Virus record (IMG/VR): IMGVR_UViG_3300042350_000912
Location: 1 to 20,887 of that record
DNA length: 20,887 bases
DNA from: a virus
Strand: one strand, 5' to 3'
This document shows positions 9,674-13,038 of this stretch, in pieces (within the stretch, counting starts at the first letter, position 1; every line of letters starts with the position of its first letter). Position numbers and translations under genes: made by a program. Below the pieces are notes generated by a model, which worked only from the letters and a program-made list of their open reading frames with translations, searched no databases and had not been told where the DNA came from.

Positions 9674-10380
9674 CTACGGCATAGCCTTCATCAGCAACAG
9701 CGCGTTCATGAACTCGCGTGCCGGCATCTTAAACACCTGATCCATGCGCAGCGGATCTTTGCCGGCCATACGATAGACCACACCGACCCAGCCGTAGTTC
9801 GGCTTTTTTACGCCTTGGCCGTTGTCGTCGTCGTCCCCTGATCCGTCAAAGACCTCCGCATAATCATCAACAAAGGCTCTGAAAGCTGCAAAAAAAAAGC
9901 GGCATATCCCCAAACGTCACCCATGTTCATCTGCAACATCGCCTCTGCGCGCTGCTTATGACCCTTGCCGTCATACGCCTTCGGCCACCACTTCCACACC
10001 CTGCACTCCCTCGAAAGCGTCGCCAAGATCAAGTGCAAGTTGTCAATCACCCCCTGTTCGCTCGTCATGTCGTAGGAATACAACTCAACCAACTGCCCTG
10101 CGCTTATTTCGTCGATGAACCACTCAAATTGATACCACTTTCCGGCAACCTTGGCGTGACGCTTAGCCGCCAGTGACGATAGCGATTTGCTCGCCGCGTT
10201 GATCTCACCATAACGCTTGTTGACCTCCGCAATCGTCATCTTCTTGACCTGCTCGATCGGGATGCCGTCGAGAACGGCGATGACGCCGATCTTTTTGTCG
10301 CTCGTAATGTAGATTGCGTTGGCCTCAATAGACACAATGCGCTGGAACTGGTCGACGGTGATTTTGTTGAGGATGCTCAT
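9674..10380 (-). CDS. Tail assembly chaperone, frameshifted long form (G-T like)
   Basis: Translation starts at 10380 in the short chaperone frame, reaches the T9 tract (9898-9890) after 163 codons, and slips back one base. The -1 frame is then open to a TAG at 9674, adding 72 residues that begin FAAFRAFVDDYAEVFDGSG and contain a run of aspartates. The product would be about 235 residues. This two-product arrangement through a -1 frameshift is the conserved strategy of long-tailed phages, in which the long form binds both the tape measure and tail-tube subunits. What I see is the slippery tract and two overlapping open frames in the correct -1 relation. Use of the shift is inferred. The extension has no good independent start codon with a matching leader. 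Confidence 0.75.
9808..10380 (-). CDS. Tail assembly chaperone, short form (G like)
   Basis: A 190-residue protein starting MSILNKITVDQFQRIVSIEANAIY. It is mostly helical, with a Trp/Tyr-rich centre (GKWYQFEWFIDEISAGQL), and in-frame reading past the slippery tract gives a tail ending in TDQGTTTTTAKA. The protein itself is only weakly diagnostic; the identification comes from the overlapping -1 frame reached through nine Ts. It would coat the tape measure during tail assembly and is absent from the virion. Its ATG overlaps the glycosyltransferase stop (ATGA) behind an AAAGG sequence that could act as a weak Shine-Dalgarno site. A tail gene is therefore translationally coupled to a sugar-modification gene, which is unusual. 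Confidence 0.7.
   Translation of the reverse strand: MSILNKITVDQFQRIVSIEANAIYITSDKKIGVIAVLDGIPIEQVKKMTIAEVNKRYGEINAASKSLSSLAAKRHAKVAGKWYQFEWFIDEISAGQLVELYSYDMTSEQGVIDNLHLILATLSRECRVWKWWPKAYDGKGHKQRAEAMLQMNMGDVWGYAAFFLQLSEPLLMIMRRSLTDQGTTTTTAKA
9890..9898 (-). other. Slippery T9 tract for -1 ribosomal frameshift
   Basis: On the minus strand the frame-0 codons are GCT TTT TTT TTG. Slipping back one base after the second TTT continues as TTT GCA GCT in the -1 frame, which is open for 72 more codons. The T TTT TTT core fits the X XXY YYZ rule. I do not see an obvious strong stem-loop directly downstream. Confidence 0.75.
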
Positions 10381-11249
10381 CCTTTTATGGCTTTAAGGTA
10401 AAGTGCATAAAGTTGACCGCATACCGTTTCAGTGCGATAGTTAGCAATGTCTGCAGGTACTGTTAGCATCTCGCGCTTGGTCACTGCACCTTCCGCGTTA
10501 AAGTGATAACTCATCACACCCTTGCCACACATCCAAGCCTCAATCGTTGTCCTGCCAATATGCAGACCACAGGCAAAGTGACACCCCTTGACCAAGGCTT
10601 CAATATTAGACACGGCTTCGTAATAGTGGACAGGGTAGCGACTTTTTAAGTCCTCAAGAAAGTCGCCATTGTTGTAGCCAACCAAAAAGAAACGCCTGTC
10701 GTTATCCTTGCACCACGCCGCCGCATCGTAAATCATCGCCTTGCGCATGTAGTCGAGTGTTCCGGCAAGTAAAACGTAATCGCCATCCTGAACGCCATCG
10801 GTGTTGAATCGGCTGTAATCAACTGGATTGTAGATGACGCTTATCTTGTTTAAGGGAACGCCATATCTTGCGTGTATTTCGTGCTTTTCGTGTTGAGCTA
10901 TACTGATGTACTCCTTGATGCTTTCGTGCTTTACAGGTCGCTCTAAATCGAAATAGACGCTATGTATCGTCGCGACCTTTGGCGTTTGTGGGAATAACGC
11001 ACACAAGTAATCAGTGACTTGCTTATGCTGGACGTGGATGACGTTGTAGGCTTCGCGACCTGTCAACTCTGCAAATGGTTTGATCAGCACCCCTGCCATC
11101 TGCGCCTCGGCAGTCATCGGGTAGTCCATGTATGGTGACGTGACCGTGACCTTATGACCCATCGCCTTCAATCCCTTCGCTACCTGCAAGACGTAAAGTT
11201 CCGAACCTGTGTACTGGCGGAAGAACAATGAGGCTATCAGTATGTTCAT
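10377..11249 (-). CDS. Glycosyltransferase family 4-like
   Basis: A 290-residue GT-B type enzyme. The N-terminal domain starts MNILIASLFFRQYTGSELYVLQVAKGL, with the Gly-containing loop and KAMGHKVTV strand usual in GT4 enzymes. IHVQHKQVTDYL and VATIHSVYFDLERP lie in the middle of that domain, and VIYNPVDYSRF marks the linker before the second domain. The donor-binding part contains RTTIEAWMCGKGVMSY, where the Glu corresponds to the first acidic residue of the GT4 E-x7-E motif; the second Glu is less clear. It would use a nucleotide sugar to modify a glycan. Its ATG overlaps the acetyltransferase stop and its stop overlaps the chaperone start, so the three genes are translationally coupled. 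Likely purposes are virion glycosylation or alteration of host surface sugars; the sequence does not decide. Confidence 0.8.
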   Translation of the reverse strand: MNILIASLFFRQYTGSELYVLQVAKGLKAMGHKVTVTSPYMDYPMTAEAQMAGVLIKPFAELTGREAYNVIHVQHKQVTDYLCALFPQTPKVATIHSVYFDLERPVKHESIKEYISIAQHEKHEIHARYGVPLNKISVIYNPVDYSRFNTDGVQDGDYVLLAGTLDYMRKAMIYDAAAWCKDNDRRFFLVGYNNGDFLEDLKSRYPVHYYEAVSNIEALVKGCHFACGLHIGRTTIEAWMCGKGVMSYHFNAEGAVTKREMLTVPADIANYRTETVCGQLYALYLKAIKG

Positions 11250-11713
11250 GGCTTTTGTTTAATTGGTCGCGCCGGGTTGCCATACGCAAGAAAGCCATCG
11301 GGAATATCGCGGGTGACAACGCTGCCTGCACCTACCAAAGCATCAACCCCGATACGAACTCCGCAGATGATTGTGCTGTTGGCCCCAATGCTACATCCCT
11401 TGCAGAAGTATGTTGACCTGAACCTGCCGTTGTTCTTCCAGTCGCCAAACACGCTGGGATAGTAGTCGTTGGTCGTCACCACATTCGGGCCGATAAATAC
11501 ATCATTGCCAATGATGCAGCCGTGATATATGAGCGCGTGATTTTGGATTTTGACGTTGTTGCCAATTTGCACTCCTGTGTCAATGTGCGCACCTTCACCG
11601 ATGACACAGTTGTCGCCAATCTTGGCACCAGTGCGGATGTGTGCAAATGCCCAGACCTTGACGTTCTCGCCAAGTTCTACGCCTTCTTCTATAATTGCGG
11701 TTGGATGTATCAT
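11246..11713 (-). CDS. Left-handed beta-helix sugar acetyltransferase
   Basis: A 155-residue hexapeptide-repeat protein starting MIHPTAIIEEGVELGENVKVWAF. Repeats of the [IV]-G-x-x type run through most of the length (GAKIGDN, GVQIGNNVKI, GCIIGNDVFIGPNVVTTN, GCSIGANSTIICGVRIG, GAGSVVTRDIP). The end, LAYGNPARPIK, is typical of sugar O- and N-acetyltransferases. The nearest known layout is the WbpD/WlbB-type N-acetyltransferase that acts on UDP-amino sugars. The acceptor cannot be read. It directly follows the large terminase with a 13-bp gap containing TAAATTTG, and is coupled by ATGA overlap to a glycosyltransferase, so the pair probably builds or modifies one glycan. It resembles a bacterial surface-polysaccharide gene and is a likely acquired cargo gene. 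Confidence 0.85.
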   Translation of the reverse strand: MIHPTAIIEEGVELGENVKVWAFAHIRTGAKIGDNCVIGEGAHIDTGVQIGNNVKIQNHALIYHGCIIGNDVFIGPNVVTTNDYYPSVFGDWKNNGRFRSTYFCKGCSIGANSTIICGVRIGVDALVGAGSVVTRDIPDGFLAYGNPARPIKQKP

Positions 11714-11726: not shown

Positions 11727-12938
11727 CTACATAATCACGTACCTGCCCCCAGCGTTGGCGGATAGCTTGTTGAGTGCGACGTAACGCACCGCGTCAATGG
11801 CGTGGTTGTACCTGTCAATCGGCACTCCCAACGACGCGCCAGTCCTGTCCGTGTCCCAAGTGTAGTTCCTCAACTCCTTGATCAGGTTCGTCGATTCACG
11901 CGTCACGAGCATCGGCTGCCGCTTCAGGATGTCGATGCTGTTCCTGATGCTATCCGCGCCCTTCGTTGCCGGGTGAATGTTGAAGCCAAGGCGATGCACC
12001 TCTTCGATACTCTTGGGTTCAGCACTGTCAGCGATGATCGGCCACGACCTGCCAATGCCCAGCTTGCGTAGGTGTTCAGCAATGTCTTGATTGGTGAGGC
12101 CGTTTTGGTAGAGTAGTTCATGCAGGAGAATAGCACTGCCACGCTTGTAGACGGCCACCACCGCCGTAGGATCGTTGGTGTAGCCCCAGTCAAGCCCGAT
12201 GGCGACCAGCTTATCACCTGCAAAGTCGATGCCGTCAACCTGCTGCCAATCGTCAAAGACCACGCCCTGCAGTGATCCGACTTCGCCCAAGCCGTAGACC
12301 TTCCACCAGTTCGCCCAGTACGTCGATGTTGCCGCCTTGACCTGCGCCGCTTCGATGTCGTCGCGGATCGTCGCCGGCAGCGCCTCGTTGTCGCGGTATG
12401 TCAGCACCAGCAACTCACTGTCTTGCTCGGCTAAGACCTCCGTGTGCGCCCAGAACTCCGACACCGGGTTGAAGTCGATGTAGATGGCTTCGCTCGTTCT
12501 GATGGCCAGCTGATGGTACGCCTCAAACTGGATGTTGTTGGCCTCGTTTATGTATAGCACCTGCCGCCGTGCGCCGCGTAGCTTCGCCTCCTGGTCTGCG
12601 CTGAAGAATTCAATCGTGCTGCCGTTGGCGAAGGTGTAGGTTAGCAGCGTCTTGTTCCAGCCTTCGTCACGCCAGCGGTTCGTCCACTGCATGACCTTGC
12701 CAAAGTCCTTCATCGCACCACGTCGCAGGTGCGGGATTGATTCAGATACGACGCTGATCTCGGTTTTAGCTTTTGCGGCTATGTTGATAAGCACAGCAAG
12801 GATGGCGATGGTTTTTCCGTTCCCCCACCAGTTGCCCAGTGGGGGTCAACATCCAGCAGATGTTCCGCCCTGAATCACCTTCTTCCGAGCGGCCACCTGC
12901 CGAATGCGCTTTATCGCTGTTGTGTGATGAAATGCCAT
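11727..12938 (-). CDS. terL: Terminase large subunit, Walker A interrupted by a bypass-like 36-nt gap
   Basis: The packaging ATPase-nuclease. Reading from ATG 12938 gives 29 residues (MAFHHTTAIKRIRQVAARKK, then VIQGGTSAG). TGT and an in-frame TGA follow. After the second GGA the same frame continues KTIAILAVLINIAAKAK to a TAG at 11727. Omitting 36 nt restores the Walker A GGTSAGKT and a 391-residue protein. Counting without the gap, Walker B is VLYINE at about 115-120. Candidate RuvC-like nuclease acids are D238 (GLDWGYTNDP), D292 (IIADSAEP) and D370 (NHAIDAVRY). The segment EISVVSESIPHLRRGA is characteristic of this terminase group. Everything but the gap looks intact, which argues against a dead gene. 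No start codon between the TGA and KT would allow reinitiation with a complete P-loop. The gene follows small terminase and MazG-like genes and a tRNA-like element. Confidence 0.88.
12816..12854 (-). other. Candidate translational bypass element in terL
   Basis: The take-off codon would be GGA (12854-12852). Next come TGT and the stop TGA (12848-12846). A hairpin follows at once: CCCCCACTGG and CTGGTGGGGG (12845-12822), ten pairs including two G-T wobbles, closing a GCAA tetraloop. Then comes AAC and the landing codon GGA (12818-12816), after which the frame continues AAA ACC. A GGGGGA purine run sits just before the landing codon and could pair with the anti-Shine-Dalgarno sequence. Matched GGA codons, a stop beside the take-off codon, a hairpin in the gap and a purine-rich site before landing are all features of phage T4 gene 60. 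The gap (33 nt, or 36 with the landing codon) is shorter than T4's 50 nt. That the ribosome hops here is inference. Confidence 0.55.
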
Positions 12939-12941
12939 TTG

Positions 12942-13038
12942 TAACCGAGGTGGGGTTCGGACCCACGTTTACAACTTCTGTTTACGGTCGGGGTGCGCAC
13001 TCCCTAATTGTCGTTTTACCACTTAAACTACTTCGGTT
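12942..13038 (-). tRNA. tRNA-like element with expanded anticodon loop (identity unassigned)
   Basis: On the minus strand the order is: acceptor AACCGA pairing with TCGGTT; a good D arm (GTTT AAGTGGTA AAAC, matching the A-box pattern TRGYNNANNNGG); anticodon-type stem ACAAT with GTTGT; variable region AAAC; and T arm GTGGG TCCGAAC CCCAC; then discriminator A. CCA is not encoded. The anticodon loop is 31 nt instead of 7, so no anticodon can be assigned. The T loop has C where position 55 is normally U, and the inner acceptor pair is mismatched. The length of about 97 nt recalls tRNA-Sec, but no UCA anticodon or long variable arm is present. It overlaps the end of the MazG-like gene by 16 bp and ends 3 bp before the terL ATG. 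It may be a decayed tRNA, a processed tRNA with an insert, or a tRNA mimic. Confidence 0.45.

Follow-up and report, generated by a model that had tools for sequence, protein, structure and literature searches.

The window analysed here, the whole 20,887-base virus record IMGVR_UViG_3300042350_000912 and probably a fragment, carries on its minus strand a terL (large terminase) gene that is split within the Walker A motif (GGTSA-G^KT) by 36 nt lying between two GGA codons. We hold with considerable confidence that translational bypassing, in which ribosomes would skip these 36 nt, is the best explanation, and the insert likely belongs to a second family of ribosome hopping after T4 gene 60. To our knowledge, large programmed bypassing in bacteria and phages rested on that single gene for decades. 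All of the evidence presented is comparative. It consists of the precise absence of the insert from related terL genes, the occurrence of related inserts at other sites, two predicted RNA structures that accompany them, and signs of lateral movement in association with an HNH endonuclease gene.

The interrupted terminase gene

The 5′ open reading frame (ORF) of terL extends from ATG 12938 to the GGA at 12852 (12852–12938; this and all features of this section are on the minus strand) and encodes the 29-residue leader MAFHHTTAIKRIRQVAARKKVIQGGTSAG, ending in ...KKVIQGGTSAG. The frame is open, and among insert carriers its protein is conserved and the changes are synonymous, with a dN/dS of 0.055 in type A (insert types are defined below). 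Its last codon is the putative take-off codon GGA (12852–12854). This is followed by a 6-nt spacer read as TGT TGA (12846–12851), containing the in-frame UGA stop (12848–12846), by a 10-bp hairpin CCCCCACTGG-GCAA-CTGGTGGGGG with a GCAA tetraloop (12822–12845), by the nucleotides AAC (12819–12821), and by the putative landing codon GGA (12816–12818), 36 nt from the first GGA. The 3′ ORF (11727–12815) resumes at AAA ACC (KT...) and encodes the remainder of the ATPase together with the nuclease domain; the frame after the landing GGA is open to the stop at 11727, giving 363 codons counted from that GGA. Matches to Terminase_3, Terminase_3C and phrog_2 identify the gene as terL. The predicted joined product has the junction peptide ...GGTSAGKTIAILAV.

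The leader, the length of the gap, its identical bounding codons and its hairpin are as described in the original prediction, which had been made from the window alone. The in-frame stop is also present, but it does not stand right after GGTSAG as had been stated: UGU stands in between, which puts the TGA two codons past the take-off GGA (GGA UGU UGA). The proposed role of the GGGGGA run as a Shine-Dalgarno-like site is doubtful because this run is the 3′ strand of the gap hairpin.

Precise absence of the insert in related phages

Among 79 close terL loci in IMG/VR, 27 (window included) have an identical 36-nt insert, here called type A, three have a 32-nt insert (type B2) and the remaining 49 have none and read unbroken GGTSAGKT. 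Pattern and protein scans added a second 32-nt form (B1) and two 35-nt forms (C1, C2), all at the same terL codon, so that five related insert types occupy exactly one site. After deduplication by sequence around the site, which was needed as several locus identifiers can stand for one contig, the carriers comprise 70 terL loci (A, 35; B1, 18; B2, 3; C1, 12; C2, 2) and the insert-free or ‘empty’ loci 117, namely 66 with GGTSAGKT and 51 with an alternative serine or other form. Exact removal of the insert restores a GGTSAGKT-type motif in every A–C case, and homologues do lack precisely this stretch, a check that the original prediction had suggested. Readthrough is not a general answer, since insert lengths of 32 and 35 nt are not divisible by three. 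Identical 36-nt inserts were found in dozens of contigs, and all insert types taken together in contigs from more than 40 IMG metagenome identifiers; judged by this recurrence, the 36-nt insert is not an assembly error.

The take-off and landing codons are both GGA in 68 of 68 A/B/C carriers, while the empties use GGC, GGG, GGA, GGT or a serine codon. Across the 39 nt from take-off to landing there is no variable site in 34 type A copies, as compared to 7 and 12 in the adjacent 39-nt coding blocks. This invariance alone is no proof of function, because gene conversion can also homogenise a sequence. The insert-free relatives of B1 (L139–L176) have the motif GGTSASKT, with Ser in place of the Gly that precedes the P-loop Lys; gain of the B1 element therefore also changes a P-loop residue.

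Several candidates from the scans were discarded. L104, L108 and L133 proved on inspection to be chance pattern matches, other insertions at P-loop-like patterns (L219–L249) lacked a hairpin or a coherent reading, and most of L370–L395 were rejected as largely terminator-like hairpins.

Further types and other genes

Searches with the linked endonuclease (see below) and with the hairpin core led to four further types, the host genes counted here being a minimum. Type D lies in more distant terL genes, again within the P-loop but at its serine codon (UCC[...]UCA, 39 or 40 nt), and type E likewise in more distant terL genes (GGU[...]GGC, 39 nt). Type F interrupts a family-B DNA polymerase gene (L355) as GCU[CGATGA-hairpin-TAAATAA]GCU, 40 nt, and its join is given by the uninterrupted polymerase sequence of a 634-kb phage, NALQLALKLVLNGSYG. 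Type G, in a tail-like gene (L362; CAA[...]CAA, 45 nt), is a probable bypass insert; its join is unproven because no homologue lacking the insert was found among phages or plasmids.

The gap lengths (36, 32, 35, 39, 40 and 45 nt) thus span all three frames, and exact removal rejoins a homologous protein (the 45-nt join in L362 being unproven); hence the protein is not restored by readthrough, nor by any one frameshift. The codons bounding the gaps, GGA/GGA in A–C and those given above, are synonymous in every type, identical in A–C, F and G and only synonymous in D and E. From D and E it follows that take-off and landing codons need only be synonymous, and from F and G that the encoded amino acid is not fixed. 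In A, C, E and F one codon separates the stop from the take-off codon, in most D copies none does, and in B and L350 there is no stop nearby. L350 is a type D copy (L350:3306-3338) in which AAA has replaced the UAA that follows take-off and the rest of the element is kept, which suggests that the stop is not essential. The gaps of L287, L292 and L355 (types D, E and F) have an in-frame UAA directly before the landing codon that is absent in A–C.

On the 28-kb contig of L355 the element-bearing polymerase piece begins as a separate short ORF, like T4 gene 60. An intein-like stretch follows YGDTDSVF downstream of this piece, and a DUF7487 protein, which may be an endonuclease, is encoded on the other strand preceding it.

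Predicted RNA structures

Twelve variants of the gap hairpin from types A–F could be aligned as one family, with a 6-nt spacer, a stem of 9–10 bp beginning with CCCC, wobble pairs near the loop, and a loop of GNRA type (GCAA, GUAA, GAAA) or UAAC. The stretch between hairpin and landing codon is 1–3 nt in A–C and 6–8 nt in D–F. All 117 stem cells of the twelve variants hold standard pairs (100% vs 80.6% in shuffles), and 22 cells are changed on both strands as compared to 7.5 in shuffles, i.e. the stem covaries. The original prediction had suggested searching related phages for a conserved layout with compensatory stem changes, and the codon-hairpin-codon layout is indeed kept in this way. Individual hairpins have z-scores of −2.4 to −3.9 (window, −3.65). 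A covariance model for this family matches the window at a single site (12822–12854, 45 bits, E about 1e-9) and each carrier locus searched once, with no other match in about 0.6 Mb. Type G fits the hairpin part of the model only (26.8 bits).

A second stem-loop is predicted in the coding RNA just 5′ of the take-off codon in types A, B, C, D, F and G (A–D and F relative to synonymous recoding, G relative to shuffles), with z-scores of −2.7 to −6.5 against synonymous recodings. In the window it spans 12855–12899 on the minus strand, ends 2 nt before the take-off codon and has the outer stem CAGGTG...CATCTG (minimum free energy −19.7, z −3.6); 16 of 2000 synonymous recodings were equally stable. 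The outer pairs are complete (6/6) in all 23 distinct A/B/C carrier leaders and average 3.4/6 in 71 distinct empty leaders (p = 2.8e-12). In type D the stem-loop is shifted together with the take-off codon and not with the gene. The uninterrupted polymerase homologue, unlike type F, has neither the gap hairpin nor this stem-loop.

Mobility and the linked endonuclease

Carriers and empties are intermixed on the terL tree, with 44 changes of state, at least 32 of them on well-supported branches, a count that recombination inflates. Near-identical carrier/empty pairs (L098/L013, L096/L008, L117/L140) differ mainly near the element. In L098/L013 the differing tract comprises 60 nt upstream and 40 nt downstream of the insert, about 100 nt in total. 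As judged from these pairs, the tract is a gene-conversion footprint, which indicates that the insert moves between phages with its flank.

An HNH_3 endonuclease gene, present in types A, B1 and C1, lies directly upstream of terL in 12 of 65 carriers and in 0 of 109 empties (p = 3.7e-6). Its stop adjoins the terL start codon and its end is 76 nt before take-off. The gene is also upstream in D and E, loci that were in part found via that gene. HNH relatives in cultured phages (L397–L404) have no element nearby. The element looks like a tolerated, mobile insert linked to an HNH endonuclease, and the earlier suggestion that the hop times or regulates terminase synthesis is unsupported.

A model for bypassing and its difficulties

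We infer the following course of take-off, sliding and landing. Ribosomes would translate the 29-codon leader up to the GGA in the P-loop, with the 5′ stem-loop folding behind them and the GNRA hairpin just ahead. The peptidyl-tRNA-Gly would then release GGA, the mRNA would move by 36 nt, and the tRNA would re-pair with the second GGA. Decoding would resume at AAA ACC to yield uninterrupted GGTSAGKT and normal TerL. Gene conversion would carry the element from phage to phage, with the HNH gene just upstream of terL in some carriers as its probable driver. Presuming that this protein is an active endonuclease with its target at this site, the insert would abolish the target and the essential gene would stay functional through bypassing.

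More broadly, and with somewhat less assurance than for the hop itself, we think it probable that these inserts represent a widespread, previously unrecognised class of 32–45 nt phage mobile elements acting as translation-level introns. The portable RNA module of this class would be composed of a 5′ stem-loop, any codon, 5–6 nt, a GNRA hairpin, a few nt and the same codon again; it would have spread horizontally many times, protecting essential genes (terminase, DNA polymerase B, tail-like) from homing endonucleases.

A number of observations weigh against bypassing. The 5′ fold of type E is not significant (z −1.4). Nor is the 5′ stem-loop unique to carriers, because five of 38 distinct GGTSAGKT empty leaders carry the type A fold. 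Unlike in T4, a sense codon enters the A-site after take-off in A, B, C, E and F, and B and L350 lack an early stop. The third base differs between take-off and landing in D (UCC/UCA) and E (GGU/GGC), so that type D needs a tRNA reading both of its codons. A stem of 9–10 bp must be unwound or carried past. The purifying selection measured pairwise in terL (see below) in part reflects history before the element arrived. Most type A copies, that of the window among them, are without the upstream endonuclease gene; for the window copy this fits a course in which the endonuclease disappears and the insert stays behind. A nascent peptide signal specific to carriers was not found either: the leader does have the Lys/Arg at positions 10, 11, 13 and 18–20 to which the original prediction had drawn attention, but the empties have almost the same basic N-terminus.

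Among the empties, L068, L072, L075, L076 and L077 share both the type A leader and its 5′ stem-loop. They represent either the lineage from which type A arose or exact losses of the element.

Alternatives to bypassing

The alternative that fares best, unlikely as it is, holds that the insert is removed from the mRNA, as a tiny intron or by another form of RNA excision, and that translation is ordinary. Exact excision would restore the protein in every type and frame, and sites in conserved enzyme motifs beside homing endonuclease genes are typical of introns. However, the insert consists of a hairpin of 22–24 nt plus a few nt, far below the size of any known self-splicing intron. No group I or group II fold was recognisable, there being no Rfam intron match, and an archaeal intron was rejected: there is no bulge-helix-bulge, and exon–exon pairing is slight, with 0–3 expected pairs and no helix. 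Splicing is made less likely not only by this missing fold and the tiny gap but also because it has no need of synonymous flanking codons, yet GGA/GGA bounds the insert in every A–C carrier and synonymous pairs do so in the other types. It also leaves the 5′ stem-loop in the exon unexplained.

If the insert were translated, by UGA readthrough in A and by frameshifting in B and C, TerL would be longer by about 12 residues. The type A gap has no stop other than UGA, and in B and C no stop interrupts the landing frame within the gap. Against this, the recoding events would have to differ between types and to occur at unrelated sites, Walker A would be split by the added residues (NWWGNGKT, LTGGGGKT and RVGVGKT do not rebuild GxxxxGK[ST]), and D, E and F contain additional in-frame stops. 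Selenocysteine insertion or UGA readthrough was rejected, as the 32-, 35- and 40-nt types are unreadable in frame. We give translation of the insert very little credence.

Still less probable is a broken gene, whether a pseudogene or a terL dispensable through use of another terminase, or an artefact of assembly. The in-frame stop would fit, and a second terL elsewhere is conceivable for a window that is a fragment. But the contigs are independent, coming from the many metagenomes mentioned above, and no disabling change was found downstream of the insert in the terL genes of 68 carriers. The downstream part of terL has a dN/dS of 0.03–0.12 among carriers, and pN/pS in carrier sister pairs is 0.047. 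An intact second terL, which would have spoken against a hop, was looked for and not found in 20 carrier records of up to 33 kb.

Equally improbable are two separate products, the 29-residue leader and a downstream protein made by re-initiation: the first listed start in the window is GTG 12794, but B2 (AUA) and C have no landing-frame start within the gap, the downstream product would be without an intact P-loop, and the matched codons, landing GGA and RNA structures would be unexplained.

A 36-nt hop of the kind known from T4 gene 60, as originally proposed, is thus supported by the exact absence of the insert in homologues, the layout with compensatory changes, the types whose length is not a multiple of three, and the lack of a second terL in the carrier records searched.

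Comparison with known systems

T4 gene 60 bypassing is described, in the parts of the literature drawn on here, as involving a 50-nt gap, matched GGA codons, a stop, a take-off hairpin with a tetraloop, a 5′ stem-loop and a short 5′ ORF (PMC5009743, PMC3014915, PMC11194080). The gap is tied to mobA as a mobile cassette, according to a section of PMC5009743 and the title of Bonocora et al. 2011, as cited in PMC4592705. The terL element resembles this system in its GGA take-off and landing codons, a gap not bound to frame, the tetraloop hairpin in the gap, the 5′ stem-loop, the precise absence in relatives, the linked HNH endonuclease, and the short 5′ ORF (46 codons in T4, 29 in the window). 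The RNA, in contrast, is unrelated. The stable-tetraloop hairpin expected at the start of a bypassed gap is present but begins 6 nt after take-off, whereas the T4 hairpin includes the take-off codon. T4 gene 60 gave no match to the family covariance model and was rejected as a member of the same RNA family. Furthermore, the A-site codon is usually sense in the terL family, while in T4 the stop directly follows take-off; the terL-family gaps are shorter, use other codons, occur in several genes, are widely mobile, and are not accompanied by a nascent peptide signal specific to carriers.

The mitochondrial byp elements of Magnusiomyces capitatus are likewise short, probably mobile inserts with matched or near-matched codons that are skipped by ribosomes, as outlined in passages of PMC5009743 and PMC4592705; they differ in being mitochondrial and present in massive numbers per genome, and the comparison is by description only. 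The original prediction had considered a hop at the catalytic P-loop of a packaging motor to be new. This has to be qualified, since a bypass has already been proposed in the terminase gene of Streptomyces phage Hau3 (PMC5009743). That candidate has a much shorter gap, at a UUA codon, and a proposed regulatory role; the portion of PMC5009743 devoted to it describes no hairpin cassette or endonuclease link.

If bypassing is correct, these inserts would constitute a second family with unrelated RNA, dozens of natural variants and at least two, probably three, host genes. Such variants would separate essential parts (matched codon, hairpin, 5′ stem-loop) from dispensable ones (adjacent stop, special nascent peptide). 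The natural pairs with and without the insert, differing by a tract of roughly 100 nt, make origin, mobility and mechanism directly testable. Gene callers will misread such genes as broken.

Hosts and neighbouring genes

Among cellular genomes, this terL has its closest relatives in Bacteroidota (Flavobacterium, Cytophagales), and Flavobacterium is likewise the host of the nearest cultured phages. Scans of Bacteroidota loci did not reveal the element in any of them; in 396 Bacteroidota genomes the single covariance-model match was a terminator-like hairpin and was rejected.

Odd tRNA-like sequences, methylases, small ORFs and endonuclease genes cluster in the region upstream of terL (L040, L056, L068, L030), a hot spot whose content differs between near-identical phages. 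In the window this region holds a tRNA-like gene (12943–13037, minus strand; Rfam tRNA, 32.9 bits) that ends just before the terL ATG and has an anticodon loop of 31 nt instead of 7. Carriers and empties both conserve this split gene, which may represent a tRNA with an interruption or a structured RNA of another kind. A link between it and the element was dropped, with 3 of 66 A–C carriers and 13 of 112 empties having it. Finally, glycosyltransferase-like and hexapeptide-transferase genes (2–778, 10377–11249 and 11246–11713, minus strand) are located among the structural genes of the window and possibly serve to modify sugars of the virion or of the host surface.
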